The notes under the pieces were generated by a model. It was not told the DNA's origin, made no database searches, and worked only from the letters and a program-made list of their open reading frames with translations. Shown in pieces: positions 15,516 through 30,979 of a DNA stretch of 64,000 nucleotides. Position 1 is the stretch's first letter. Each line of letters starts with the position of its first letter. The position numbers were made by a program, and so were the translations under genes. The DNA comes from Aphelidium insulamus (taxonomy: Eukaryota > Aphelidiomycota > Aphelidea > Aphelidiaceae): positions 30,001 through 94,000 of the forward strand of contig JAZDSV010000021.1 of NCBI GenBank assembly GCA_036784855.1. The letters run 5' to 3'.

Positions 15516-15670
15516 TAGAACTACTTTAATAAACGCATACACACTACTGTATAACGTTATCAGTATGCAAGTGCTCAGCAATCTAAAGAAGGATCCAGTA
15601 AAACGGCAGCGCACGGCGTGAAAGCTTGCTAGTAACTATGTAAGTCTGCATGTTGCAATTTTTTACAAAA

Positions 15671-15872
15671 AGTGCGTTGATCATTAACACAATGTTGTCT
15701 GTCTGTAGGCGCAGTTATTGCATTACAGAGGAGTTAGGGTTAACCCTTAGGGTTTTTTAAACCCCCCCCCCCCCGGTGACGCGCCCCTACGCCCATTAAA
15801 GCTGTTTTATGGTCTCATTTTGTGTATATTCACACAGTGTTGACACACTCAGTGTCGGATATTGAGCGGCAT
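15671..15872. repeat. left terminal inverted repeat
   Basis: It begins AGTGCGTTGAT and passes inward through TTGCATTACAGAGGA, GGTGACGCGCCCCTACG, GGTCTCATTTTGTGTATA and GACACACTCAGTGTCGG to GAGCGGCA. Each block recurs in reverse complement at the right end in the opposite order. This copy has an extra segment at about 15733-15761 and a run of 13 C (15762-15774). Confidence 0.85.
15733..15774. repeat. telomere-like insert and C homopolymer inside the left repeat
   Basis: GTTAGGGTTAACCCTTAGGG (15733-15752) contains two TTAGGG units around an inverted AACCCT, followed by TTTTTTAAA and 13 C. The right repeat lacks this segment and has only six G at the matching place. Confidence 0.7.
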
Positions 15873-15922
15873 TTATTGTAGAGTGAAACAAGTGTATTCA
15901 AATGCTATATTACTATCACCAT

Positions 15923-16357
15923 TTACCCCTCCTCCTCCTCCACGTACGTGACGGCCTTTCTCGATCTTCCTGCTTTACGCGGCACTGGCGTCTCCACTGG
16001 GCTGGGCATTGATAGTGACGACGCGGGAACTTTGGCTTCTTTCAGAACTCCTTCTTGAGACGTTGTAGACGACGTAGTCTGAACTCCTTCTCCAGGCTTC
16101 AACGACGAACCAGTGGCAGCCTGCGGCGGCTCAGCAGTGACCACCGATTGACCCAGTGCTGGTTGGGTGCGTGTGTATTCGCGCTGGAGCAGAAACTGCG
16201 AGTGCTGAATCTGCGTGATGTCGTCGGCACTGTATGCATTGAACGTGTTGTATGTGTTGAACGTGTTGTTGGCGGTGGCAGCAGGCTGGTTGACGTATTG
16301 GCCGCCCGGTCCAAATTGCATTGCCGGGTCCGTCTGCGATGCGCGTTCTTCAACCAT
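15923..16357 (-). CDS. element orphan ORF A
   Basis: An open frame on the minus strand. I prefer the ATG at 16357 (MVEERASQTDP) over an upstream one that would overlap the next gene. It predicts about 144 residues, with an Asn/Thr-rich repeat (NTFNTYNTFNAYS), Gln-rich helix, Ser/Thr/Pro-rich middle and a basic patch PRKAGRSRK before an acidic end. No family recognised. It is divergent from ORF B with only about 48 bases between starts. Confidence 0.45.
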   Translation of the reverse strand: MVEERASQTDPAMQFGPGGQYVNQPAATANNTFNTYNTFNAYSADDITQIQHSQFLLQREYTRTQPALGQSVVTAEPPQAATGSSLKPGEGVQTTSSTTSQEGVLKEAKVPASSLSMPSPVETPVPRKAGRSRKAVTYVEEEEG

Positions 16358-16405
16358 TTCAACAACTTGAATCAAAAGAGGCGTTTCTCTTTTCTTTCTG
16401 CAAAA

Positions 16406-18296
16406 ATGTCTCAAAATTATTCCGCGCACCAGCATCTCGCCCAGGTGAAGAAGGACTTGGCACGACTACGCCTCGATGGTATGCCGTGCTCGCTGGGTAT
16501 ATGGACGGAAGCGACGATTTGGAACTGGAAGAAAACTGTCTAGTGCCATTGTCGCCGGGTCCCTCGACCATCACGTGTGCCCTAGTCCTGCGTGCGGGAG
16601 ACTACATTGACCCCCAACGGTGAACAATCCCCATTTATGGGAATCGAACGGGAACCTGCGGGCGATAGTAGTTGGCCACGTGTGAACTGATACCTGGTCG
16701 GAGCACCCGATGACGCGAGTTGAGTATAGAAAGAGAAGATGCAGACGTGGATGGCGTGTGCCCAGGTACGTTTCGTTTTTGTTCTAATATTTTGTAGGCC
16801 AATTTCCTCCCTCGTTGGCCGTTGGTGTTTCAACTGCTGATACGCGCTGTTTGAACTCTCCCGGTACGCCATTGGTCAGTACGCGTTGGTCTCACTCCTC
16901 TGTAGATGGCGGCAGCACCGTTCAGCTTCCTTCTCTTCTTGAAAAGATGCGGAATGGCAAGAAGCGTCAACGAAATGATGTGGATGTGCTTGATGATATC
17001 AACTTGGTCGATTTGCCGCCGTCGCCTCCACATTCGTCCAAGAAAGTCCACATATATCACGAGGCGCAATGTAGGAAAACTTTCTGAACTTTGACCGAAT
17101 TTATTGATTTAGTTGGAGAAGAAGTGAATCGTGAGTCGCGGGTGTGTTCTCGAAACAAGTGCAAGGAGGGTTCCAAGAAACGCGATGGCAAATTGATTAC
17201 ATTCACGGCGAAGATGGATGGGTCATTTTACAAAGAGTGTGATATATGCCGTGGCCATACGAACAATGTTTCAAACCCGATGACCAATGCCAAGGTAAAC
17301 TTTAATTTCTCTTCTCCCCACCCACTTCTTGTCGTATCATCGGTGAATTCCGTGGTGTAACAGGGGGTGGCGGGGACTTTGTGATCAGTATTCTAACTTT
17401 TGTAGAAGTCAGATGCCGCCAATGTTGCTCGTGCGAATGGGATGTGTCCTGGGGCTCAGAACAATGGTTGTCCTACGAGCAGTGCCGCCGCCACTCCAGA
17501 TGCTATTTATTGCGACATTTGTCAACAACGAGTCACGGCCAACGGTCCTGCTGTGTTGCGCTCTCAGCAAAAGGCCACCGAGCGAGCTCTGGCCATCAAA
17601 GTTGCTCGTCCGCTGATCTTGGAACTGTCTGCTCTGGGTGCCGAACCAGTCCAAGTTGCGCTGGGCGCTGACACAGTGATGAAGATACAGTCGGATATCG
17701 TGGGCATTGACACGGCTGGCATCGACAAGTCGCACGGAACCGACAAGATGTACGAGGTCGCCGGCTTTTACATTGACTGTGATGGATGCGAGCACCAGTT
17801 CTACTCGAACCGCAGCAAATTGAACAAGGTGGAAGTGTACAACTCTGTGTGGAAAGTCATAGTTGATGAGAAACTGCTGCGGGAGACGGACTGCTTGGGA
17901 ATGCTGCAGGACTTCAAGGACTTCACAGGCAGCCGCACGATCGCCTACCACGCGTCCCAGAATGCCATCGACTACCATCGACTGACTCGCATTTACTCTG
18001 CACTCAAGGTCAAGAATCCGTTTCCCACTTGTGACAAGTGGCTGAACACGGGGTTTCACGTCGCCTCCAAAGTCTTTGGCCCGCACTCTTCATCACTGGT
18101 CACCAGTACTCATTGGAAGCTCGAGATTCTATTCGCTGATATGTGGACTGTCTCTGAGGTCACTGTTGTGCCGCTGCCGGATAGTCGAGTAGTCACTGTT
18201 CCAACCAATGCTCGTAATCCAATTCAAGACGCACGCCGTACCTGGAATCTTGTGCAAATTATTCGCGAAACATTGACTGGCTCGGTATACAAGTAA
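16406..18296 (+). CDS. element ORF B: paired-zinc-motif protein with introns
   Basis: Multi-exon gene. Probable introns are about 16683-16720, 16766-16797 (32 nt), 17069-17110 (removes an in-frame TGA) and 17295-17405; each has GT-AG ends and keeps frame. Two Cys clusters, ending KECDIC and YCDIC, lie on either side of the last intron and look like duplicated zinc-binding units. The 250-residue C-terminal part (from about 17550) is well ordered with a third Cys pair, DCDGCEHQFYSN, but matches no family I know; the stop is 18294-18296. The first exon needs one base added at GGG 16495-16497 and one removed at CCCCC 16611-16615 to stay open. Function unknown; a DNA-binding or structural role is possible. 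Confidence 0.55.
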
Positions 18297-18337
18297 AGTC
18301 AATAAAGTTGATTCATCTTCAAATGGTTGAAGCAGAA

Positions 18338-18362
18338 AATTCGTCCGCCTCGCGGACGAATT
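18338..18362. terminator. perfect hairpin between ORF B and ORF C
   Basis: An 11-bp perfect stem (arm AATTCGTCCGC) with a 3-base loop, 42 bases after the ORF B stop. It shares the core CGTCCGCC with the hairpins at 19279. It could be a transcript 3'-end signal or a protein-binding site. Confidence 0.55.
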
Positions 18363-18467
18363 CTACATATTCCTCAGCTGCTGATGGGCAGTCTATAAAA
18401 GGCAACATTTCATTTCAAATTACTACAAAAGGAATCTCGAATGAAGTGCATTCTTCTTCCACAAAAA

Positions 18468-19210
18468 ATGGCTGTCACGGAGGAACAACAGCAGTTTATC
18501 ATCAAATGCTTATACGATTTGGACCAGAAACAACGGCTCAAACTGTCAATGGCCACGCTTCGTCAACTCGCCAAGGAGATGAACGTGACGGTACCGTCAC
18601 AGGCGACGCAGGCGACGATGCCGAAAACGCCACAACTACTGAGAGCTCCGATAAGTACGCTGGAATCAAGTCCAAGCTCATTGAGTGGCACGAACAGCTA
18701 CGCGGCATAAAGGTTGATATGGCCGAAGTTGACGGCGCAGACAAAGAGAAGATGGAGCTTTTGAAGGAATATCTACGCAAATCGAATGTAGCTGGAAAGA
18801 CGAATCTGTACTACACATTTATGGCCGGCGAGATACTGAAAGACTTCAAAGAACAGAAGAAGAAGATTGCTGGAAAGTCATTCGATGCTTTCTGCAAGGA
18901 TAATTTGCTGATGGGTCGCACCGCTGCATACGAGCACATAGCATTCTTCACCGGTTGTGGCCCCGTCAAGCGATTTCTTCTCGTCGTCAACTCGAGTCGC
19001 AAAGAGTTGATTGCAACGGTCAAGCAGGCCAATGCGCTCTTCACTGAGGTTGCGGCCGGAAACGTTGAGAATGTGCACGTTGCCTGGAGAATGGAATCGT
19101 GGACGATGAGTCTTGTGCAGTATAAGAGCATCGCCGAGCCAATAGTCCCAAAGCCTGTCATTCAGCTGGAAAAGGCGCTATATTCGTCGTGTGTCATTAC
19201 AGACGACTAA
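18468..19210 (+). CDS. element ORF C: possible helix-turn-helix protein, frameshifted
   Basis: The natural start is ATG 18468 (MAVTEEQQQFIIKCLYDLD), in a frame that shifts near AAAA 18624-18627; after it the coding frame continues to the stop at 19208-19210. The middle segment SFDAFCKDNLLMGRTAAYEH resembles the recognition helix region of phage/plasmid-type helix-turn-helix proteins (pattern F..F......+..AY..I). The N-terminus is helical and the linker acidic/Thr-rich. If the frame were really broken, an ORF from 18308 in the other frame would cross the hairpin, which is unlikely. Assignment to DNA binding is tentative. Confidence 0.5.
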
Positions 19211-19278
19211 TATTAATAGATTCGATGATTTCATAATACGAGTTTAACATCAATCACAGTAATAGAGCAGAAGCACAT

Positions 19279-19316
19279 TTCGTCCGCCTGGCGGACGAAT
19301 TATCCGCCTGGCGGAT
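19279..19316. terminator. two adjacent hairpins between ORF C and ORF D
   Basis: A 10-bp stem (arm TTCGTCCGCC, 19279-19299) is followed directly by a 7-bp stem (arm ATCCGCC, 19302-19316). Both share CCGCCTGGCGG with each other and nearly with the hairpin at 18338. All lie between genes. Confidence 0.55.
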
Positions 19317-19361
19317 TGGTCAAATAAACGAGTTTAAAGTTATCGTTTCTATCCCTGGTAA

Positions 19362-19568
19362 ATGCCTTGTGAGATTTGTAAGAAAGATTTAATCCGAAAG
19401 AATGTTTGTTCTCATTGTAAGGAACAGCACGAGTATCTTAAATGCGTCAACTGCAAGAAGTACAGGCCGCGATACTACGGGCTGGAAGTAATCAACGATA
19501 AATTGATTTGTTTTGCGTGTCTGGAATGTACTTGTGGCACAGCAATTATATGCTATAAATGTATTTAA
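19362..19568 (+). CDS. element ORF D: small Cys-rich zinc protein
   Basis: 68 codons with six CxxC-type pairs: CEICKK, CSHCKE, CVNCKK, CFACLEC, CTCGT and CYKC. Dense CxxC spacing indicates a compact zinc-binding protein. It ends 55 bases before the polymerase start on the same strand. No specific family recognised. Confidence 0.55.
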   Translation: MPCEICKKDLIRKNVCSHCKEQHEYLKCVNCKKYRPRYYGLEVINDKLICFACLECTCGTAIICYKCI

Positions 19569-19623
19569 AGTTAATTTTTATATCTACGGTATAACAATAC
19601 AAAGAACTACATTTCCATCCAAG

Positions 19624-21650
19624 ATGAGCTACACTTTGTACGAGAATATAAAGCTGACCATCCCAAATAATTTCCTGCTCGAATACGACGGCAAGTTTGT
19701 ACTGAGAGGAATGCGACGTATCAGGAAACGCGAGCGCGTTATCAACGGCATTGTTGTGCCTATTTCAAACGACCATCGAAAGCAGCTCCAAGTAACATTG
19801 GCTGCACTCACGCGACGCGGAATTGCCGTTTTAGATCCAAAATACATTGTCACTCCATCGAATCGGATTGTCAAGAACGGCCAAAAAATAATGCGACAAC
19901 TTCAAACAGGAGGTTACAATGTAAAGAAGAACATTGCCAGTAAGAAGCGGCGCCGATCTATGAATATCGAGCCGGCGAACAAACGGCAACGCGTAGATAA
20001 CTTCGACTTCATCGTGAACGTCAAGTATTCCATTTCATACGTGACACAGTTTACGGGAAAGCAGCGTGCTCATACGCATCGTGGCTTCCTAAGAGACACG
20101 CACATCTTTGATATTGATTCGGAGCTTCAGACAATTGGCGAGACATACTGTTCTCGTCAGGCATATTCAACGCGTGTCATCAACATTGAGTACGACACCG
20201 AAGCTGTGCCTGCTGAAGTAACGGCATTGGCTGACGAGAAGATGTTTGGCGCTGTGGTTGACTATCACTATTTGAATATAGAATCTAATCACTCTGACAA
20301 GCGCGATTGCGTGTATCAATATCTGGTTGGTGCCTACGGAAGCAGCATCAAGTCACTCAGCCAACAATCATTGATGGAGCTGTTTGGAGAAATAAACATC
20401 AACACAGGAGTTTCCAGTGTGCAAGTGCAGGCATTCTGTATGAGATACAACATTCCACTGTACGCGTTGGACGTTGACTTGAAGCTGTTTCACAAGTTTG
20501 TCCCAACTAATCGGAGTCACAAGCTACCAGCTCTAGTTTATGTTGTAGCAAATGCTCATATGTATCCAATAGTGGACAAAGCAATGCGAAGCTCACTTTT
20601 TGCTGTGGAGCGTACAATTAATGACAACCAATGCGCGTACGTCAAGAAGAGAAAGAGCAACACACAGTATGACAACAAGAAGCCCGTTGTGGTGAATCCC
20701 AGCTTTGATGAGCTACAACAACTGTCTAACACGAATGTGATTTACACTAACGTAGACACATTGCTACCATTGGTGTTGTATCTATTCAGTACGGAAGCTG
20801 TTATATACAAATCACGTAGTTACGGCGGTAATGTGGTGACTATCAACTACAAGGACAATATTGATGTTCAAATCAATGCCGACTATCACGAAGCTGAAAT
20901 TAATTGCAAATCACTTACCATTCCATTCAAGAACCAAAACTTAATTACATTGGTGAATGAAGCATTTGAGACGTACAGGCAAACGGACAAGATTAAGAGC
21001 ACATTCAACTCCGTGACTAAAGATGTATTCTTCAACCATATCAAGCAACCATTTGACCATACATTCAGTGTTCCAGGTCGAGAAACAAACTTGAAGTCAT
21101 TTGATATTCAAAAGTGCCACAGTGCAGCACTATCAAATGAAAACGAGTACGACTGGAGCGTGTTTTCAATATTCGATGAAGTCAAGCCGTATTCTGGAAT
21201 GATGAACAACGGATTCTATTATGTTGAAACATCCAACTTCTTTCCATTACGCGGCACTGGCTGGTATTCACGCGGCATCCTAGAGTATGCCAAAAACCAA
21301 GACATTCAACTTGAGATTAAATACGAGATACTTCCAAGCCACACTTTGTCAGCTGACTATTTCAACGATTTTGTTGAGCGTGTCTATGAGAAGTGCACGT
21401 CTCCAAAGCAGATGATGAACTGCTTCATTGGGTGTTTGAACAAGAAGGTCACGCGGAGACAAAAGGACCGGTTCACCTGTGAGCTTAGTGATGCAGTCCG
21501 ATACTATTTCTCAAACGAGCATACAACGTACTTCAAGTATCCAGAGTGTCCAGAGCTGTATCACGTAATCATTGAAGAGACCGAGGCGATGCATCAGAGC
21601 TGCATCCTATCTACTGGCAAGTTATAGACAACAGCAATGTTATGTTGCAC
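19624..21650 (+). pseudogene. divergent family B DNA polymerase part
   Basis: The ATG at 19624 (MSYTLYENIKL) begins a long frame. Around residues 260-330 a conserved pre-polymerase block (CVYQYLVGAYG, YNIPLYALDVD, NAHMYPIVD) is visible. Polymerase motif A is FDIQKCHS (about 21,100), motif B is KQMMNCFIG (about 21,400-21,430), and motif C is KTDC at 21690-21701 in place of the usual DTDS. The frame breaks at CC near 21609, where one extra C would keep it open into the motif C region and helicase. This is the replicase of the element. Lack of a recognised terminal-protein domain leaves the priming mode open. Confidence 0.75.
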
Positions 21651-22754
21651 AAACTGGCAGTCAAAATGGGTGGGAAGATTGTGAAATTGAAGACTGACTG
21701 TGTGGTTGTTCAGGATGGCAATGATGTTGTGTGCAAGCCGGGTATTGGTCGGTATCGTGTCGAGCCCATCCCATCAGAGTTCATAGAGTCCCGTCCATTT
21801 GAAGTTGACTACTCATTCAGGCTGAAACAGATTGTCTGGCGAGAATCAATAAAAGGACATCAGCGACTGTTGTGCGGTATGGCTGGAACGGGAAAGAGTT
21901 TCGAATCAAGGAAGACGTCAAGAATCTCGATAGTTACGTGTTACTTGCCACAACAAACAAGGCAGCACGATTAATTGGAGGTCAGACGTGTCACAAGTTC
22001 TTTGGTATTGACATCAATGGTACGTACAACAGAAATGCGGCGATGAAGCTTGCCAGGAAGTATGAGTACATAATAATCGATGAGATTAGTATGCTGCAAG
22101 CAGACTTGTATGAAATCTTGTATGATTTGAAGTTGGCGACCGGCGTCAAGTTCATACTGGTAGGCGATTATGACCAACTGCCGGGGGTGGAGAAGAAGTC
22201 ATACGAATACTTGAACTCGATGGCATTGAAAGAACTTGTCGGATACCAAAGGAGTGTCTGACTGAGAACAGACGTTCAGATGACGTGATGTGGGACTTGT
22301 TTCATCGTGTTGATGAACTGACACCGGATGACTTTGGCACAAATAGTAAGACGCGCATCCACTTGTGTTACACCAATGCAAAGCGAAAAGAGATTAATGA
22401 TTTGATGATGAAGTTAGACAGCTTGAAGAAGAAGCGGATGCTATCCATCAAGGCTAACACAGTTGACAGTAATTCACAGGTCGTGAAATTGATGACGGGA
22501 ACACCAGTGATATCCATAAAGAATAATCACGCGTTGTGCCTTGTAAATGGCGCCACATTTGTAGTGAAATCCATTGAGCCACTGCGACTCAAAGATACCC
22601 TCACGGGAACAATACTAGATATAACCATTGAACAGTTCCAGCAGTATTTTTACGTCAACTACTGCAGTACTGTTCACAAATGTCAAGGCGAAACATTCAC
22701 TGAACCGTATACAATTCACGAGTGGAACAGAATGTCAAGAAAGATGAAGTATAC
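21651..22754 (+). pseudogene. SF1 (Pif1/RecD-like) helicase, N-terminal part, interrupted
   Basis: Continues from the polymerase without an intergenic gap. Walker A GMAGTGKS (about 21,876-21,899), motif Ia TNKAARL, Walker B IIIDEISM (about 22,072-22,095) and motif III VGDYDQLPG are present. Frame breaks at TTT near 21901 and GG near 22242 each need one added base. Motif V-like STVHKCQGETF follows near 22,670. The frame ends at 22754, where the retrotransposon starts; motif VI is found beyond it. Probably fused to the polymerase as one polypeptide before insertion. Confidence 0.8.
22750..22754. repeat. target-site duplication, left copy
   Basis: TATAC directly before the 5' LTR; the same five bases follow the 3' LTR at 28652-28656. 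Confidence 0.9.
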
Positions 22755-23419
22755 TGTAACAGTGGCCACTGTTAACGACACAATCGGCAACCTGGACCTC
22801 GACCCGGACCCGAACCCAAACCTGGACCCACGACGCGTGCATGTGTAAGGGACGCGGGGCACCAGGTGCTCCCTAGTCAACTTGTCCCATCTTTGTGTGT
22901 CTGCTGCTTGTCGCTGCTCACACGGGCCTGTTACTAGGTGAGCCTGGTGTCCTGCTGTTCCCGTCTCACACACCAGGTCTGTCGCGTCGTGTCTCTCTCT
23001 GCTCCTGTCCTGTCTGTGCCGTGTGTCGCGCGCCTCTCCCGCTTCTCCCGCTTCTCCCGCTTCTCCCGCGCCGCGTCTCACTCTCCTCCCAGGTACAATA
23101 GACACTATCCCATCTTTGTGTGTCTGCTGCTTGTCGCTGCTCACACGGGCCTGTTACTAGGTCTGTCACGTCGTGTCTCTCTCTGCTCCTGTCCTGTCTG
23201 TGCCGTGTGTCGCGTGCCTCTCCCGCTTCTCCCACTTCTCCCGCGCCGCGTCTCACTCTCCTCCCAGGTCTGTCGCGTCGTGTCTCTCTCTGCTCCTGTC
23301 CTGTCTGTGCCGTGTGTCGCGCGCCTCTCCCGCTTCTCCCGCTTCTCCCGCGCCGCGTCTCACTCTCCTCCCAGGTCCGGTTACCTCACTCGAACAGCGA
23401 GCCGCCGGCCGCTGTTACA
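22755..23419 (+). repeat. 5' LTR
   Basis: 665 bp. After a short U3, it is built from tandemly duplicated blocks: a roughly 105-bp unit (from CTGTCGCGTCGTG to CCTCCCAGGT) occurs three times, and a block with CCCATCTTTGTGTGTCTGC occurs twice. These low-complexity C/T-rich repeats open spurious frames. Confidence 0.95.
22875..22885 (+). promoter_or_regulatory. self-primer segment in the 5' LTR
   Basis: AGTCAACTTGT is the exact reverse complement of 23419-23429 at the LTR/internal junction. In Tf1 the first 11 bases of the RNA anneal to the primer site, so the transcript start is predicted near 22875. Confidence 0.65.
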
Positions 23420-23429
23420 CAAGTTGACT
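23419..23429 (+). promoter_or_regulatory. primer-binding site of self-priming type
   Basis: ACAAGTTGACT immediately follows (and overlaps by one base) the 5' LTR. It does not begin with the TGG expected for a tRNA 3' end, but pairs over 11 bases with 22875-22885. Confidence 0.65.
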
Positions 23430-23433
23430 CCCT

Positions 23434-24489
23434 ATGGCACCTGATCCGAACGGTTCGGCCCCTGCTAGCTCAGTGTCGAGCGTCGAGTATCAGCTGGCTC
23501 AAGTACTCAACGCTCTCAATGGGCTCACAGCACAAGTCCAGCGACAGGCGGAACTGCAACAGCACTTGGAGTCGCGCCTCGATATGCAGCTTCCACCAGA
23601 CAGCCCTACGCCTGTACCTCGCCGACAACCACCAATCCTCGTGGAAGATGAAAACAAAAAAAATATGCAGCAGCTTCTGCGAGCCGCCATGATTGACACA
23701 TTCATGGGAGAGCGCAGCGTGGTGGCTGTGCGGAAGTTCCTGTCCCAGTGTGAAGTAGGTTTTGGAGCTTTCGATGTCTCTGGCCCCGGACAACAATTGT
23801 TGGTTGCCACTTCCCGGCTGCGAGGGCCAGCTGAGGCGTGGTGGGCCACAATTGGCATTGAGCGACACCCCAAGAACTGGCACGACTTCACCACCCTGTT
23901 CAGAGCGCAATTTAACCCGGTGGATGATGAAGATCAGGCCCGGATCGAGCTTCACCAAATGAAGCGACATCAGTTCACCACCCTGGCCAAATACCACGAG
24001 GCGTTCCGCACCACATTGTCGCGCATTGATAACATGGCCGAAGCGGACAAACGCCTTATCTACTTGCAAGGGTTATCGGATGAACAGCAACGAGCCATCC
24101 GCCTGTACCAACCAAAGACCTATGAGGAGGCTATGGAAAGTGCGGTATTCCTAGAATCTCTTGACCGGCGCAAGCCACGGACCCTAGCCTATCAGGCCCA
24201 ACGAACGGCAGCATACACACCAACACCACGTAGCGCACTTGCTAGCAGCACGGATGGCCCACAACCAATGGATCTCTCGGCCGTGGAAGGTAGCCGCCGT
24301 TACCCACCAAAACTTACTGCCGAAGAGCGAGAGCGTTGCTTGCGTGAAGGCCGCTGTTTGGCATGCCGTGGGCTTGGACACTATGCAAATGACTCTGCCT
24401 GTCCATTCCACAAGAACATCAATAGAGCGACTTCGGCCTACTTGTTATATGGCAGTGATTTGAACAAGCAAGATGCTGGATTGCAGTAG
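23434..24489 (+). CDS. retrotransposon Gag
   Basis: 351 codons from ATG 23434. The central region has the retrotransposon-gag fold signature (GPAEAWWATIG, then a helical block with YHEAFRTTLSRI). A CCHC-like knuckle CLACRGLGHYANDSAC lies near 24,355-24,403, with wider spacing before its last Cys than usual. It ends in TAG at 24487-24489; the same frame continues straight into protease. Confidence 0.9.
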   Translation: MAPDPNGSAPASSVSSVEYQLAQVLNALNGLTAQVQRQAELQQHLESRLDMQLPPDSPTPVPRRQPPILVEDENKKNMQQLLRAAMIDTFMGERSVVAVRKFLSQCEVGFGAFDVSGPGQQLLVATSRLRGPAEAWWATIGIERHPKNWHDFTTLFRAQFNPVDDEDQARIELHQMKRHQFTTLAKYHEAFRTTLSRIDNMAEADKRLIYLQGLSDEQQRAIRLYQPKTYEEAMESAVFLESLDRRKPRTLAYQAQRTAAYTPTPRSALASSTDGPQPMDLSAVEGSRRYPPKLTAEERERCLREGRCLACRGLGHYANDSACPFHKNINRATSAYLLYGSDLNKQDAGLQ

Positions 24490-27400
24490 TTCCTGTTCGA
24501 CCCCGGGGCCACACATAATTTCCTGGCACGGCACTTGGCAGACCAGACCAGCTCCCAACTAGTCACCAACGGGGACCCGAGTTCTACCGTACGACTACCG
24601 ACGGGGGACACCCAACCTGTCCATGGCTCTATCACTGTCGGCTGCTCTGTAGGTAACTATGTTGCCAACCTCAGCTTCACGGTGCTGGACCTACATCGCG
24701 GCGTGGATGCAATTCTGGGCAAGGAGTGGTTCCACGCAGTGAACCCATCAGTGGACTGGAGAACCAACACCCTCACTCTGCGATACAAGGAAAAGGAAGT
24801 GTCAATGCAGGCAACGGCACCGCGGGAGCCACTACCAGATGCAGATGAGGAGGATCAGCAAGAGTGTTGCCTGATGGAGTTAGCCGAATTTAATGCTCTG
24901 GCTGCGGACACTGGCACACCTGTCTACGCATTGTTCCTGAAGGAAGCACTTGACTCACGACGCGAATTTGGAGTAGAGGTGGAAGGCATGAAGGAGCTAT
25001 TGCTGGAGTTTGAGGATGTTTTGACCAAGCCACCGGACTCACTACCGCCTATGCGTGATGTACAGCATGAAATACCCTTGGTGCCTGATGCACGAGTGCC
25101 TACACCGCGGCTGTACCGTCTATCCTTTGCCGAGTCGGATGAACTCAAAACACAACTCGAGAAGCTTTTGTCCCGCGGATGGATCAGGCCGTCCACTAGC
25201 AGTTATGGCGCACCAGTACTCTTCGTTCAAAAGCCAAATGGGCGTGGACTGCGCCTGTGTGTCGACTACCGAGCATTAAATGACATCACCCTGAAAGACC
25301 AATATGGCATGCCGCGCGCAGATGACTGCCTGGATCAACTGGCCGGCGCACAACTGTTTTCCAAAATGGACTTGTTTGCCGGTTTCCACCAAATCCGCAT
25401 CAAACCGGAGGACGTACACAAGACCGCGTTTCGCACTAAGTATGGACACTTTGAGTACCTGGTCATGCCTTTGGCCTCACCTCCGGACCGGCCACATTCC
25501 AGCGCCTAATGAACCAAGTATTTCAGCCATTGCTGGATCAGGGTGTTGTGGTCTACCTGGACGATTTACTGATTTACTCCAAGACGGCTGATGAACATGT
25601 AGCAACGCTTAAGAAGGTATTCACCCTGCTACGGCAGAACCAACTATTTGCGGAACCAGAGAAGTGCGCAGTTTGCCCGCTCAAGAACAAAGTTCCTAGG
25701 CCACGTCGTTTCTGCAAAGGGTCTTATGGTGGACGATGCTAAGGTGGATATAATCCGTGACTGGCCTTCACCTAAGTCGGCAACCGAGCTCCGTTCGTTC
25801 CTTGGCCTAGCCAACTACTACCGGCGCTTCATCGGACAATACTCACTGATTGCTGCTCCATTGACGGAGTTGACAGGTTCTGCTACAACTTGGAGGTGGA
25901 CACCAGACAAGGAACAGGCATTTACGAAGTTGAAGGAACGCCTGACATCCGCGCCCGTACTACAAGCACCGGATCGTAACAAGCCATTCCACATATTTTT
26001 CGATGCCTCCACGGTCATTGCCATAGGGGCAGTACTTTGCCAGGAGGACCAGGACGGCCGCCTGCACCCAGTGGCTTTCGAATCACGCAAGCTCATTCCA
26101 GCGGAACGATCATACCCAGTGCATGAGATTGAGTTAGCGGCACTGGTTCATGCATTGAAGAAGTGGCGACATTATCTGGATGTGGAGCGGTTCTTTGTAT
26201 ACACGGACAATATTTCCCTCCAAACCATACACACCAACGAGAACCTGAGCAAGCGCCAAGCGCGCTGGCTGGCCGAAATACAAAGTTATCAGTTTACCAT
26301 CAAACACATACCCCGCGAGCAAAATGTTGTCGCCGATATCCTTTCAAAGTGCCAGCATGCACCCATTGTTGTGCCAGCTACTGCAACAATTCAACGCACC
26401 TACCATGGGGATAATGCACTCCTTCTCAATGCGGTGGACCAAGAGCGTGCACAGTTGCCATTGCTGGAGCGACAAAAGAATTCCTGACAGCAGTTAAGGC
26501 AGGTTATGTTAACGACAGACGTTGCGCCAAACTGCTGGCGGAACCACAACAACCATTTCGGGTGTGCGATGGACTCATCTACTATGATGCGGGAGACGAC
26601 CCACCACGGCTGTTATTGCCTACAGCACCAGCAATCCTTCGTCTGGTGCTCGAGGATGAGCATGACCTGGCGGGTCACCTAGGCATTGAGAAGACCTATG
26701 CCCGAGTTCGACGCCGCTACCTGTGGAACCATTTGCATCGCGATGTCAAACGACACTGTGAACAATGTCTGTCCTGTCAACGGAACAAAAGCCACAATCA
26801 GCCCCCCGCTGGTCTACTACAACCACTCCAAGTCGGATTAGACCGCTGGACAGACATAGCCATGGATGGCATCCCCAACCTACCTTGCTCAACATACGGC
26901 AATGACATGATTTGGGTAGTGACATGTCGGAAGACCAAGGCCATTGCATTGATCCCATGTGCTACCACGGTGTCCGCTCCGCAACTCCTCCACTTGCTTC
27001 GATTACAGGTATTTGCTAAGAAGGGCTACCCGCTAACGATTGTCAGCGACCGCGATCCCCGCATCACCTCCAAGTACTGGCAGGCATCCATGAAAAGGTG
27101 GGGTATCATCTCCCACATTTCAACGGCACGCCACCAGCAGACAGATGGTCAATCTGAGCGATGCGTGCGTACTATCAAGGAAATGCTCCGGCACTACTTG
27201 GACCACACTCAAGAGAACTGGGAGGAATTACTACCCGACGTGGAAATGGCATATAATGACTCGGCACATGCTTCAACCGGGTTGTCGCCATTCTTTGCAG
27301 ATCTAGGGCGGCAGCCCAACGTGCTGAAGTTGACGACAGAACCAAGTGCGGCCCCAGCGGTGGATGAGCTGGCATCCCGACTGTCCCAGCTTAACACAGA

Positions 27401-28112
27401 ACTCACAGACCAGATACTAATGGCGGGCCAGCGACAACGTTTCTATGCCGACCTACGCCGCCAGGATGCTCCACCATATGCGGTGGGTGATCAAGTGCTC
27501 TTGGACCACTCTGCACTTGAAAGTTGGTCCGTGTGGCAGTTGGCACCCAGTCGGAAGCTACGTCCCAAACGCTATGGACCATTCACCATTACAAAGGTGG
27601 AAGGACTTAACGTCACATTGAAGTTACCGCCCACGTTAACACGCCTACACCCGACATTCCACGTGTCCTTACTGACGCCTTACCGCCCTTCCGAGACGGA
27701 TGCGGTGACTGAACTGCCACCGGACATTGTTGATGGTCATGAAGAATTCGAAGTGGAGGCAATCTTAGGCGAGCGCACTTACCGGCGTCGGAAGCAGTAC
27801 CTAGTCAAATGGAAGGGATATGGACCTGAGCACAACACATACGAACCGGTAGAGAACTTGGCGAATTGCAAGGATGTGTTGGCGGACTATCAGCATATGC
27901 TTGCCACACTCAGTATGACGGACACGACAGAAGTTTCAAATTTACTGCCAAATTTTTTTGAGGGGGAGGAGGCTTCTGTTTTGCGGGGGAGTGTAACAGT
28001 GGCCACTGTTAACGACACAATCGGCAACCTGGACCTTGACCCGGATCTACCCCGCTCCTCGCGCCTCGCCCGGTGCACGTGCACGGCGCCCGGCTCGCCA
28101 GGTGCTCCCTAG
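24490..28112 (+). pseudogene. retrotransposon Pol: protease, RT, RNase H, integrase, chromodomain
   Basis: In the gag frame after UAG, the protease site is FDPGATHNF. Reverse transcriptase shows LCVDYRALND and the catalytic YLDD (about 25,550-25,565). RNase H carries FDAST and YTDN. Integrase has an HHCC finger (HLGIEK to CEQCLSCQ) and D,D,E in AMDGIP, SDRDPR and HQQTDGQSER. The chromodomain has YLVKWKGYGPEHNTYEP near 27,800-27,850. One-base breaks occur at TTT 25470-25472, AAA near 25690 and AAAA 26474-26477. The frame has no stop before the 3' LTR and ends inside it at 28110-28112. Confidence 0.93.
27984..27991 (+). promoter_or_regulatory. polypurine tract
   Basis: GCGGGGGAG-type purine run directly before the 3' LTR, the expected plus-strand primer. 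Confidence 0.7.
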
Positions 28113-28651
28113 TCAACTTGTCCCATCTTTGTGTGTCTGCTGCTTGTCGCTGCTCACACGGGCCTGTTACTAGGTGAGCCTGGTGTCCTGCTGTTCCCGT
28201 CCTCACACACCAGGTCTGTCGCGCCGATTGTGTCTCTCTCTGCTCCTGTCCTGTCTGTGCCGTGTGTCGCGCGCCTCTCCCGCTTCTCCCGCTTCTCCCG
28301 CGCCGCGTCTCACTCTCCTCCCAGGTACAATAGACACTATCCCATCTTTGTGTGTCTGCTGCTTGTCGCTGCTCACACGGGCCTGTTACTAGGTCTGTCA
28401 CGTCGTGTCTCTCTCTGCTCCTGTCCTGTCTGTGCCGTGTGTCGCGCGCCTCTCCCGCTTCTCCCGCTTCTCCCGCGCCGCGTCTCACTCTCCTCCCAGG
28501 TCTGTCGCGTCGTGTCTCTCTCTGCTCCTGTCCTGTCTGTGCCGTGTGTCGCGCGCCTCTCCCGCTTCTCCCGCTTCTCCCGCGCCGCGTCTCACTCTCC
28601 TCCCAGGTCCGGTTACCTCACTCGAACAGCGAGCCGCCGGCCGCTGTTACA
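27992..28651 (+). repeat. 3' LTR
   Basis: 660 bp. It matches the 5' LTR almost throughout the repeated part, but the stretch about 28042-28101 differs strongly from its counterpart 22805-22862. One array has two instead of three CGCTTCTCC units. Confidence 0.95.
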
Positions 28652-28656
28652 TATAC
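28652..28656. repeat. target-site duplication, right copy
   Basis: TATAC directly after the 3' LTR, matching 22750-22754. Confidence 0.9.
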
Positions 28657-29068
28657 GGCCATCAGCAGAGCCACTAGCAAAGATTTAATCAGTGTCGTGA
28701 ATGGTGATAACGAGCACCATCAAGCTACAGCTGATACGGACTTTAAAAAGTTGAGTTTCAAGATGAAGAGAGCAAACCGATGTCAAGACCCTTTGTATCA
28801 ACGACGTCAAGATGCTCAGCACGTAATTAATTCCATACTGAGAGGGAACAGTAGCGACGAGTATTGTCTCCAGCACACTTTTAAAACGCGTAAAGAGTTA
28901 CTGGAGCATCTTGGCATAGATGATGATGTTCCCAAAGGATATGAGATTGACCATATCAGGCCGAGACACGAGCATATTACTGAGGAAGACTTCAAGAACA
29001 TCAATGCCTATTGGAACCTAAGATTGTTGCCGCGTAAAGACAATAATGAGCGTAATTGGATGAAATAA
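28657..29068 (+). pseudogene. helicase C-terminus with HNH-like nuclease tail
   Basis: Right of the retrotransposon the reading frame resumes with the SF1 motif VI block AISRATSKDL, the missing end of the helicase at 21651-22754. After about 70 residues comes KGYEIDHIRPR, then YWNLRLLPRKDNNE: the Glu-x-Asp-His and downstream Asn-x-x-Leu...Asn pattern of HNH nucleases. Stop TAA at 29066-29068. The HNH tail is therefore part of the same polypeptide as the helicase. Confidence 0.75.
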
Positions 29069-29096
29069 ATTATCTTGTGATGAGTATAACTATTTA

Positions 29097-29897
29097 ATGA
29101 AAGACACATTGACTATATCATACGAACTCAGCAAGGAAGACCTCGCGTGTTGCATCTGTCTGGATGAAATTACAGTCCCCGTTATTCAATGTTCCACTGG
29201 TTGTCACTTTGTATGCAGCAAGTGTATGAGGAAACTTCACTCCCGCCGATGTCCAGTATGCCGAACGCGTAATGTATTTAATAACAAGTTACTTCAAAAA
29301 GAGCTATTAAAGCATATGGTAGAGTGCACCAATGAAGGATGTGATGTCAAGTGTCTTCCGTGGTCTCTTGACAGTCACGTCAGCAATTGCAAGTATGCTG
29401 TGAGTAATTGTTTCATCTGTGGCAAGGAGACATCCTTGTTGATGCTCCGTAGTCATCTCAAACTTCAATGCGATACTGTCCAATGGGTCGAAGAAGAAAA
29501 CGATACCATCATTGGCAACTTGGCATTGCTTCAGAGCTGGGGTGCTAGTCACGATGTATGCAAGATGACACTCAGTTTACCTGAAGCAAATGAAAATCTC
29601 GTCGCGATAATGAATGATACAGTTGTGATGTTCAAGTACAATGAAGATGGATACATTATTGGTGTAGTGAACACAGTTGCGTCTGACAATCCAGTCAATC
29701 TGTCATACACATCAAGTCCACAGAGTAGCGTGTACAGTTGCACCACCAATGTATCCATTATTCCATCCGAAACATTGGCTATACTCGATGAGAATGAATT
29801 AAAACTGCCCGTAATACCTTGTAGCATCAAGCAAATAGAACTGCAAACAGCAATGGATGAAACACTGAGTAGAACTGCCGCAACTTATAATGAGTGA
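29097..29897 (+). CDS. RING plus TRAF-type zinc-finger protein (probable E3 ligase)
   Basis: 266 codons, intact. Residues 18-57 form a C3HC4 RING: CCICLDE, CSTGCHFVCSKC, RRCPVC. A SIAH/TRAF-type zinc finger follows (CTNEGCDVKC, HVSNC, CFICGKE, HLKLQC). The C-terminal 130 residues are beta-rich without a clear MATH domain. RING-TRAF proteins transfer ubiquitin; in a mobile element this could act on host proteins, which is inference. It starts 28 bases after the HNH stop. Confidence 0.8.
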   Translation: MKDTLTISYELSKEDLACCICLDEITVPVIQCSTGCHFVCSKCMRKLHSRRCPVCRTRNVFNNKLLQKELLKHMVECTNEGCDVKCLPWSLDSHVSNCKYAVSNCFICGKETSLLMLRSHLKLQCDTVQWVEEENDTIIGNLALLQSWGASHDVCKMTLSLPEANENLVAIMNDTVVMFKYNEDGYIIGVVNTVASDNPVNLSYTSSPQSSVYSCTTNVSIIPSETLAILDENELKLPVIPCSIKQIELQTAMDETLSRTAATYNE

Positions 29898-30096
29898 AAC
29901 ATCAACCCTGATTTCTTCTTTGAGTTTCAATCTGAGTAGATGTCGAGTAAACTCCTCTCGGGGATTAGCCTCTGCTCTTCTGACGCGACGGTTGTTGTAA
30001 TTCTCCAGGGGAAGTTAACACCTTTAGGGTGGCTGTGTTTGGGGTTCACAGCGTGGCAGCAATGTCATACGTCCCCCGCCCGTTTTATTTGTCATC

Positions 30097-30651
30097 TCAT
30101 TGAGCTGTGAGCAATGAAAGCAACTTGGACTGCAGCTTCTGTTGCCTCTCCATCTGTTTGCACAACAAAGTTTCATCTTTCCATACAGATGAAGAATATT
30201 CATCAATGCACGCGCGTGAGTCTCCATCGGTATCCTTTACTCTCATATGAAACACAATGCCGCATTCAATGTAAAAGGCATCTGTATCTGTAATGTGATA
30301 TTTATTCTTGCACAATAGTTCCTGTATCTGGTCGTAGCGCGATTTAATATCCAACTTGCTCATCAGCGATGAATTGAGTGCCTCCAAGTGTGTCAGACGT
30401 TGTTTCATCGTGGACATAATGTTGGCTCTGACTGGGTTCTCCACCTTCATATACTTGTCCGCGATATCATCAAGTATCACTGGTGTACTCTGTCCAAAGT
30501 AGGGCACGGCAATCTTAGAGTAGCTATTGCCCACTCTCTTCTCCTGCACTTCATACACGTGATTATTACGGGGGTCAGAATACACTGTCCCAAGTGGAAG
30601 TGTGCGCAGGTAGCAGCATTTAATAGTTGTAGATGGGACAGTTAGTTTCAT
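30097..30651 (-). CDS. element orphan ORF
   Basis: 184 codons, start MKLTVPSTTIKCCYLRTL. N-terminal part beta-type, middle strongly helical and likely coiled (NIMSTMKQRLTHLEALNSSL), C-terminus Gln/Leu-rich. No family recognised. It is convergent with the RING gene and lies just inside the right inverted repeat. Composition is AT-rich like the polymerase. Confidence 0.55.
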   Translation of the reverse strand: MKLTVPSTTIKCCYLRTLPLGTVYSDPRNNHVYEVQEKRVGNSYSKIAVPYFGQSTPVILDDIADKYMKVENPVRANIMSTMKQRLTHLEALNSSLMSKLDIKSRYDQIQELLCKNKYHITDTDAFYIECGIVFHMRVKDTDGDSRACIDEYSSSVWKDETLLCKQMERQQKLQSKLLSLLTAQ

Positions 30652-30795
30652 TGGAGAGAGTTGTTATACTGTATGACAAGAAAATAAATTCGCCGTAAAC
30701 GTAATTGAATATCCGCGTAATTACTTTCATCAATACAGTGTAAACATAGGACGAGAATAAAGCCTGAGTTCATTGCATTATCTTATCACAACAAT

Positions 30796-30973
30796 TGCCG
30801 CTCAATACCCGACACTGAGTGTGTCAACACCGTGAGAATATACACAAAATGAGACCATAAAACAGCTTTAATGGGCGTAGGGGCGCGTCACCGGGGGGTC
30901 TCCTCTGTAATGCAATACACTGCACCTCGCTTCGATTCAGACAACATTGTATTATTAATATTATCAACGCACT
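30796..30973. repeat. right terminal inverted repeat
   Basis: Reverse complement of the left repeat block by block, ending ATCAACGCACT at 30963-30973. About 178 bp without the telomere-like insert. The golgin-like gene starts only 7 bases outside. Confidence 0.85.
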
Positions 30974-30979
30974 CTTAAT

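Follow-up and report, generated by a model that had tools for sequence, protein, structure and literature searches.

A 64,000-nucleotide stretch of the Aphelidium insulamus genome (contig JAZDSV010000021.1, positions 30,001 to 94,000; hereafter the window) contains a 15,137-bp element at window positions 15762–30898, or about 9,235 bp without a nested insert. The element is probably a chromosomal relative of the polinton-like viruses and transpovirons that has no capsid, and its core pPolB-S1H protein would combine an OTU-like domain, a protein-primed-type family B DNA polymerase, a superfamily 1 (SF1) helicase and an HNH-like tail. This reading rests on the inverted ends, their runs of C (C-runs), the gene order, the fused replicase of related copies, purifying selection and the absence of target duplication. 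Consistent with the original prediction of an autonomous replicating element or virus-like integrant, the family appears to be self-replicating and virus-related; the window copy itself is dead, since the pieces of its replicase fall in frames 1-0-2-1.

Boundaries of the element

A scan of the window reported a single inverted-repeat pair of at least 40 nt, at 15769–15879 and 30788–30898 (111 nt, 95% identity), which confirms that inverted ends bracket the gene set. The original prediction had nevertheless set these ends too far out, at 15671 and 30973: when the genome itself (17,953,404 bases in 169 contigs) was searched with each end, the other copies were found to start at a C-run followed by GGTGACGCGCC, which places the element at the boundaries given above. 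An outer inverted repeat brackets the element (15668–15733 and 30899–30976; 66–77 nt, 75% identity) and has no second occurrence in the genome searched. This duplication, seen at this locus only, is possibly a trace of how the window copy inserted.

A polymerase and a helicase in one polypeptide

The HNH-like piece that lies beyond the nested insert is the continuation of the replicase, as had been suspected at the outset, and the proposal that polymerase and helicase were formerly one polypeptide is borne out by single open frames of 1192 aa and 1126 aa in two other copies (C32 and C150, respectively). The conserved start of the protein corresponds to the first Met, at 19624, in the window copy. 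Cys180 and His263 of the putative OTU-like region are kept in all ten aligned relatives. The family B palm shows motifs A and B together with a motif C that lacks the first Asp of DTD, and the SF1 helicase is fused C-terminal to it. Structure comparison of the first replicase piece was made on a model of the relative P0002, which aligns with phi29 from chain residue 6 onwards and may therefore hold a remnant of the exonuclease domain, which members of the class named below lack.

The palm and the helicase fused to it fit the Tlr1-like helicase (pPolB-S1H) class, described in polinton-like viruses, Tlr1 and transpovirons (PMC11071308, PMC12721341). The replicase class itself is already published, and the earlier statement that the element fits no standard class does not hold for its replication protein. 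Among the relatives, P0005 shows a GIY-YIG match of 21.9 bits against a cut-off of 22.6, and the HNH match is internal rather than terminal in P0007 and P0010.

Copies in the genome and selection on their genes

Further copies were looked for in the same assembly and the element proved to be multi-copy, with replicase stretches of at least 300 aa at ten or more loci and at least 37 matches to open reading frame (ORF) 8 on at least 26 contigs. Long copies measure about 9–11.5 kb overall. Three others (C110, C53 and C90) are only 4–5 kb long; they keep ORF8 and the RING gene, the latter with its frame split in C90, and replicase queries found no match in them. Ratios of nonsynonymous to synonymous substitution (dN/dS) indicate purifying selection on both accessory genes. 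The ORF8 estimate omits C63 (split by an insertion), C10 and the copies of element family B, and the RING estimate omits C90 (two frames) and C96 (fragments) and includes C162, whose frame is stopped at codon 135. Synonymous divergence among the copies is high and the proteins are conserved.

Insertion junctions and the origin of the copies

Both ends are readable in nine copies, and all 18 of these ends carry a C-run of 6–22 nt. Target duplications were sought at the ends, and no flush direct repeat of 2–12 nt was found in any of the nine; when offsets of up to 3 nt were allowed, the best target repeat was 3 nt, in two copies. The base preceding the C-run is A at 23 of 29 ends, T at five and G at one (p = 5e-7 for A against one third, the two ends of one element not being independent and C being invisible there by construction). 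This count omits C63R, where the contig ends in the run, the truncated ends of C117, C53b, C38 and C12, C22L and C86R (no run found), the C85 and C26 ends, which lack a match to the end pattern, and the unread ends of some copies of element family B.

The main rival explanation, which we regard as unlikely, is that host end-joining trapped a linear extrachromosomal plasmid of the nucleus or cytoplasm, which had no integration function of its own and of which the copies would be passive fossils. The missing target duplications, the lack of a recognized integrase, the free variation in C-run length, the high synonymous divergence between copies with conserved proteins and an HNH-like tail that is out of frame in three of the five copies checked would all fit such an origin. 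However, nine copies retain both ends, and the preference for A before the C-run argues against passive trapping. A cytoplasmic life is also difficult to reconcile with a predicted intron in the ORF2 slot of seven aligned elements from both families, which show AAG/GTA in seven of seven, CTAAC in five and the 3′ site TTTGTAG in six (the site has decayed in C63). This shared intron suggests, from its splice signals, that the genes may be transcribed and spliced in the nucleus.

A less probable source still is a polinton-like virus with a capsid, whose proviruses decayed and lost their structural genes in the copies seen. Such viruses typically have this class of replicase, and a capsid-bearing one has been reported from the chytrid Spizellomyces (PMC7805220). 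However, C32 is complete at 10,632 bp, its inverted ends match at 83% and its replicase frame is intact, and its stop-to-stop frames measure 1192, 273, 236 and 223 aa and then shorter. Among its frames of at least 60 aa, the only Walker A motif is that of the helicase. This leaves no place for a single-exon capsid gene or packaging ATPase, while a multi-exon capsid gene could remain. In three further long copies (C97, C1 and C124) the ends lie 10.6–11.5 kb apart with the replicase between them, their interiors not having been read whole. A Pox_A32-type packaging ATPase was not found anywhere in the genome by a search whose control matched; the nucleocytoplasmic large DNA virus (NCLDV) capsid profile matched no control, so that its genome search is uninformative.

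There is very little to recommend a polinton, a Helitron or a cut-and-paste transposon with an unrecognized integrase or transposase among the orphans, since flush duplications are absent from all two-ended copies, terminal repeats with a family B polymerase are ill-suited to Helitrons, and a Pfam scan of ORFs outside the nested insert detected no integrase. The reported lack of integrase and capsid genes holds for the native element in that none was recognized there; the integrase zinc domain within the span is not native because it belongs to a nested Ty3/gypsy insert. An assembly artefact or contamination can practically be set aside: several copies do sit at contig ends, as repeats do (C63, C150, C162 and C165), but differently flanked ones lie inside long contigs (C88, 256,554 bases; C32, 342,337; C97, 615,101; C1, 1,020,338).

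Several observations weigh against a capsid-less, virus-related element with this replicase. Its support is drawn from assembled sequence, in which no free DNA form was seen, nor could an assembly show one. The Pfam scan did not recognize the replicase as a polymerase, no terminal protein was identified, and no fold match was obtained for the OTU and primer domains. The predicted replicase model is of moderate quality (mean predicted local distance difference test score, pLDDT, 66.7; predicted template modelling score, pTM, 0.40), with the OTU-like region partly below 50. The HNH-like tail gives a weak match (PF13392, HNH_3, E 0.023, below cut-off) and is in the helicase frame in C32 and C63 and out of it in C150, C97 and C162. 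The DEDD-like ORF described below lacks profile support.

Accessory genes and the nested retrotransposon

The features of the window copy are listed in Table 1. In the ORF2 slot, three other copies have frames with a D-T-E motif, noted by eye, which might encode a DEDD exonuclease. The corresponding frame of a short element (C53:209689-210351) resembles a PD-(D/E)XK nuclease by eye. The RING/TRAF protein and the orphans of the original prediction are present, although the RING matches fall below the Pfam cut-off. Partial short copies of ORF8 occur in or near elements of family B (C32:147011-147163, C150:444655-444807, C1:555039-555146 and C154:4786-4911), the one in C32 appearing also as an internal inverted repeat. 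C32 further contains a small basic Cys-rich frame (147349-147789) that by eye is like the cysteine-adaptor repeats of large DNA viruses and has no Pfam support. Internal repeats of about 130–138 bp, which may correspond to the internal tandem repeat of transpovirons, lie near the intron in C32 (two) and C150 (three); apart from an 18-bp array of 2.2 copies, no tandem repeat was reported for the native sequence of the window copy.

Table 1. Features of the element in the window
Feature	Position	Strand	Remarks
Left terminal inverted repeat	15762..15879	+	opens with a 13-C run, then GGTGACGCGCC
ORF1, low-complexity protein beside left end	15926..16465	-	74% identical relative in C110 element
Predicted spliceosomal intron	17295..17405	+	GT..AG, CTAAC at 17393; position common to 7 aligned elements
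ORF2, exon downstream of predicted intron	17406..18296	+	D-T-A where three other copies read D-T-E
ORF3, orphan	18218..19210	+	65-86% identical relative in C63
Replicase piece 1, OTU-like region and family B polymerase	19507..21627	+	motif A FDIQKCH, motif B NCFIG
Replicase pieces 2-4, polymerase end (KTDC) and SF1 helicase	21576..22754	+	three further frames
Ty3/gypsy long terminal repeat retrotransposon, foreign to native element	22755..28651	+	5,897 bp; Pfam domains, long terminal repeats, target duplication
Replicase last piece, helicase end and HNH-like tail	28652..29068	+	EIDHI at 28943
ORF7, RING/TRAF-like zinc protein	29097..29897	+	weak Pfam matches below cut-off
ORF8, conserved orphan beside right end	30097..30651	-	family's most widespread gene in genome
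Right terminal inverted repeat	30788..30898	-	6-C run, as read on minus strand

The gene set had been described as self-contained, which overlooked the Ty3/gypsy retrotransposon. This insert matches Pfam gag, aspartyl protease, reverse transcriptase, RNase H, integrase zinc domain and chromodomain, its long terminal repeats share 93.9% identity across 670 aligned columns, and it is flanked by a TATAC target duplication (22750–22754 and 28652–28656). The insertion site is intact and empty in C63. A 107-bp tandem duplication lies within the long terminal repeats (23159–23377 and 28391–28609). In C165 (loci L002, L018 and L049) the same gypsy insertion occupies the identical site, with 97.1% identity to the window copy over 7,893 bp; further left, the two are only about 76% identical in two aligned stretches (16508–16966 and 17292–17413). 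Either the copies are therefore mosaic, or an element already bearing the insert was copied.

Proposed replication and insertion

In the mechanism that we propose, the genes would be transcribed and spliced in the nucleus, and the OTU-like protease would free the N-terminal alpha/beta domain of the replicase, which may serve as the protein primer from which the polymerase starts at the C-run ends. Slippage during priming might produce the variable C-run lengths, and the helicase would unwind DNA in front of the polymerase. The linear product could then join chromosomes at A/T-rich breaks, cut perhaps by the HNH-like tail and sealed by end-joining, or handled by end-joining alone, and end-joining would insert it without target duplication. 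Short elements devoid of replicase would be copied in trans. A more specific proposal, which we put forward tentatively as somewhat less likely than its negation, is that these elements form a separate lineage of self-synthesizing transposons in chytrid-type fungi. They would be nuclear, capsid-less and protein-primed from homopolymeric C ends by a polymerase-helicase, would insert at A/T sites through end-joining or a tethered nuclease, leaving no duplication, and would sustain 4–5 kb satellites in which selection keeps ORF8 and other accessory genes.

Comparison with known systems

The element is unusual in uniting a pPolB-S1H replicase with copies in the chromosomes of a probable fungus, ends made of C homopolymers, too little space for a capsid gene and a lack of target duplication. 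If our reading is correct, pPolB-S1H, so far found in viruses and giant-virus episomes, also occurs in capsid-less elements of a probable fungal nucleus, and the element represents a step between virus and transposon. The homopolymer ends and the absence of target duplication make a protein-primed, integrase-free route testable, and the purifying selection on accessory genes in copies that lack a replicase points to a hidden satellite system. The open-licence literature, represented mostly by titles and abstract openings, yielded no fungal pPolB-S1H element devoid of a capsid.

Tlr1-like pPolB-S1H proteins share with the present replicase a palm with a single-Asp motif C and the fused SF1 helicase; their OTU Cys/His pair, and the HNH or GIY-YIG nuclease that some members carry, may have counterparts in its OTU-like region and HNH-like tail (PMC11071308, PMC12721341). 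The published viral members reside in capsid-bearing elements, whereas a single-exon capsid gene would not fit into C32. Fungal cytoplasmic or mitochondrial linear plasmids are also capsid-less DNAs with a pPolB (PMC11071308), but the present element is chromosomal, has a predicted intron and fuses a helicase to its replicase. It differs from Helitrons in its terminal inverted repeats, an HUH Rep not having been specifically searched for. Polintons/Mavericks similarly have a protein-primed-type family B polymerase, inverted ends and chromosomal copies (PMC12220804); outside the gypsy insert, the present element, in contrast, has no recognized integrase of retroviral type. It also shows no 5–6 bp duplication (none of the nine two-ended copies) and no capsid, and its helicase is fused to the polymerase. 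Transpovirons share the inverted ends, the pPolB-S1H replicase, the lack of a capsid and a small linear-type gene set with small zinc or DNA-binding proteins (PMC7031253, PMC11788076). However, they are giant-virus episomes of about 7 kb with inverted ends of 380–520 nt, whereas the present element is found many times in the chromosomes of a eukaryote, where no helper virus was seen, and has C-run ends of about 110–150 nt and a predicted intron.
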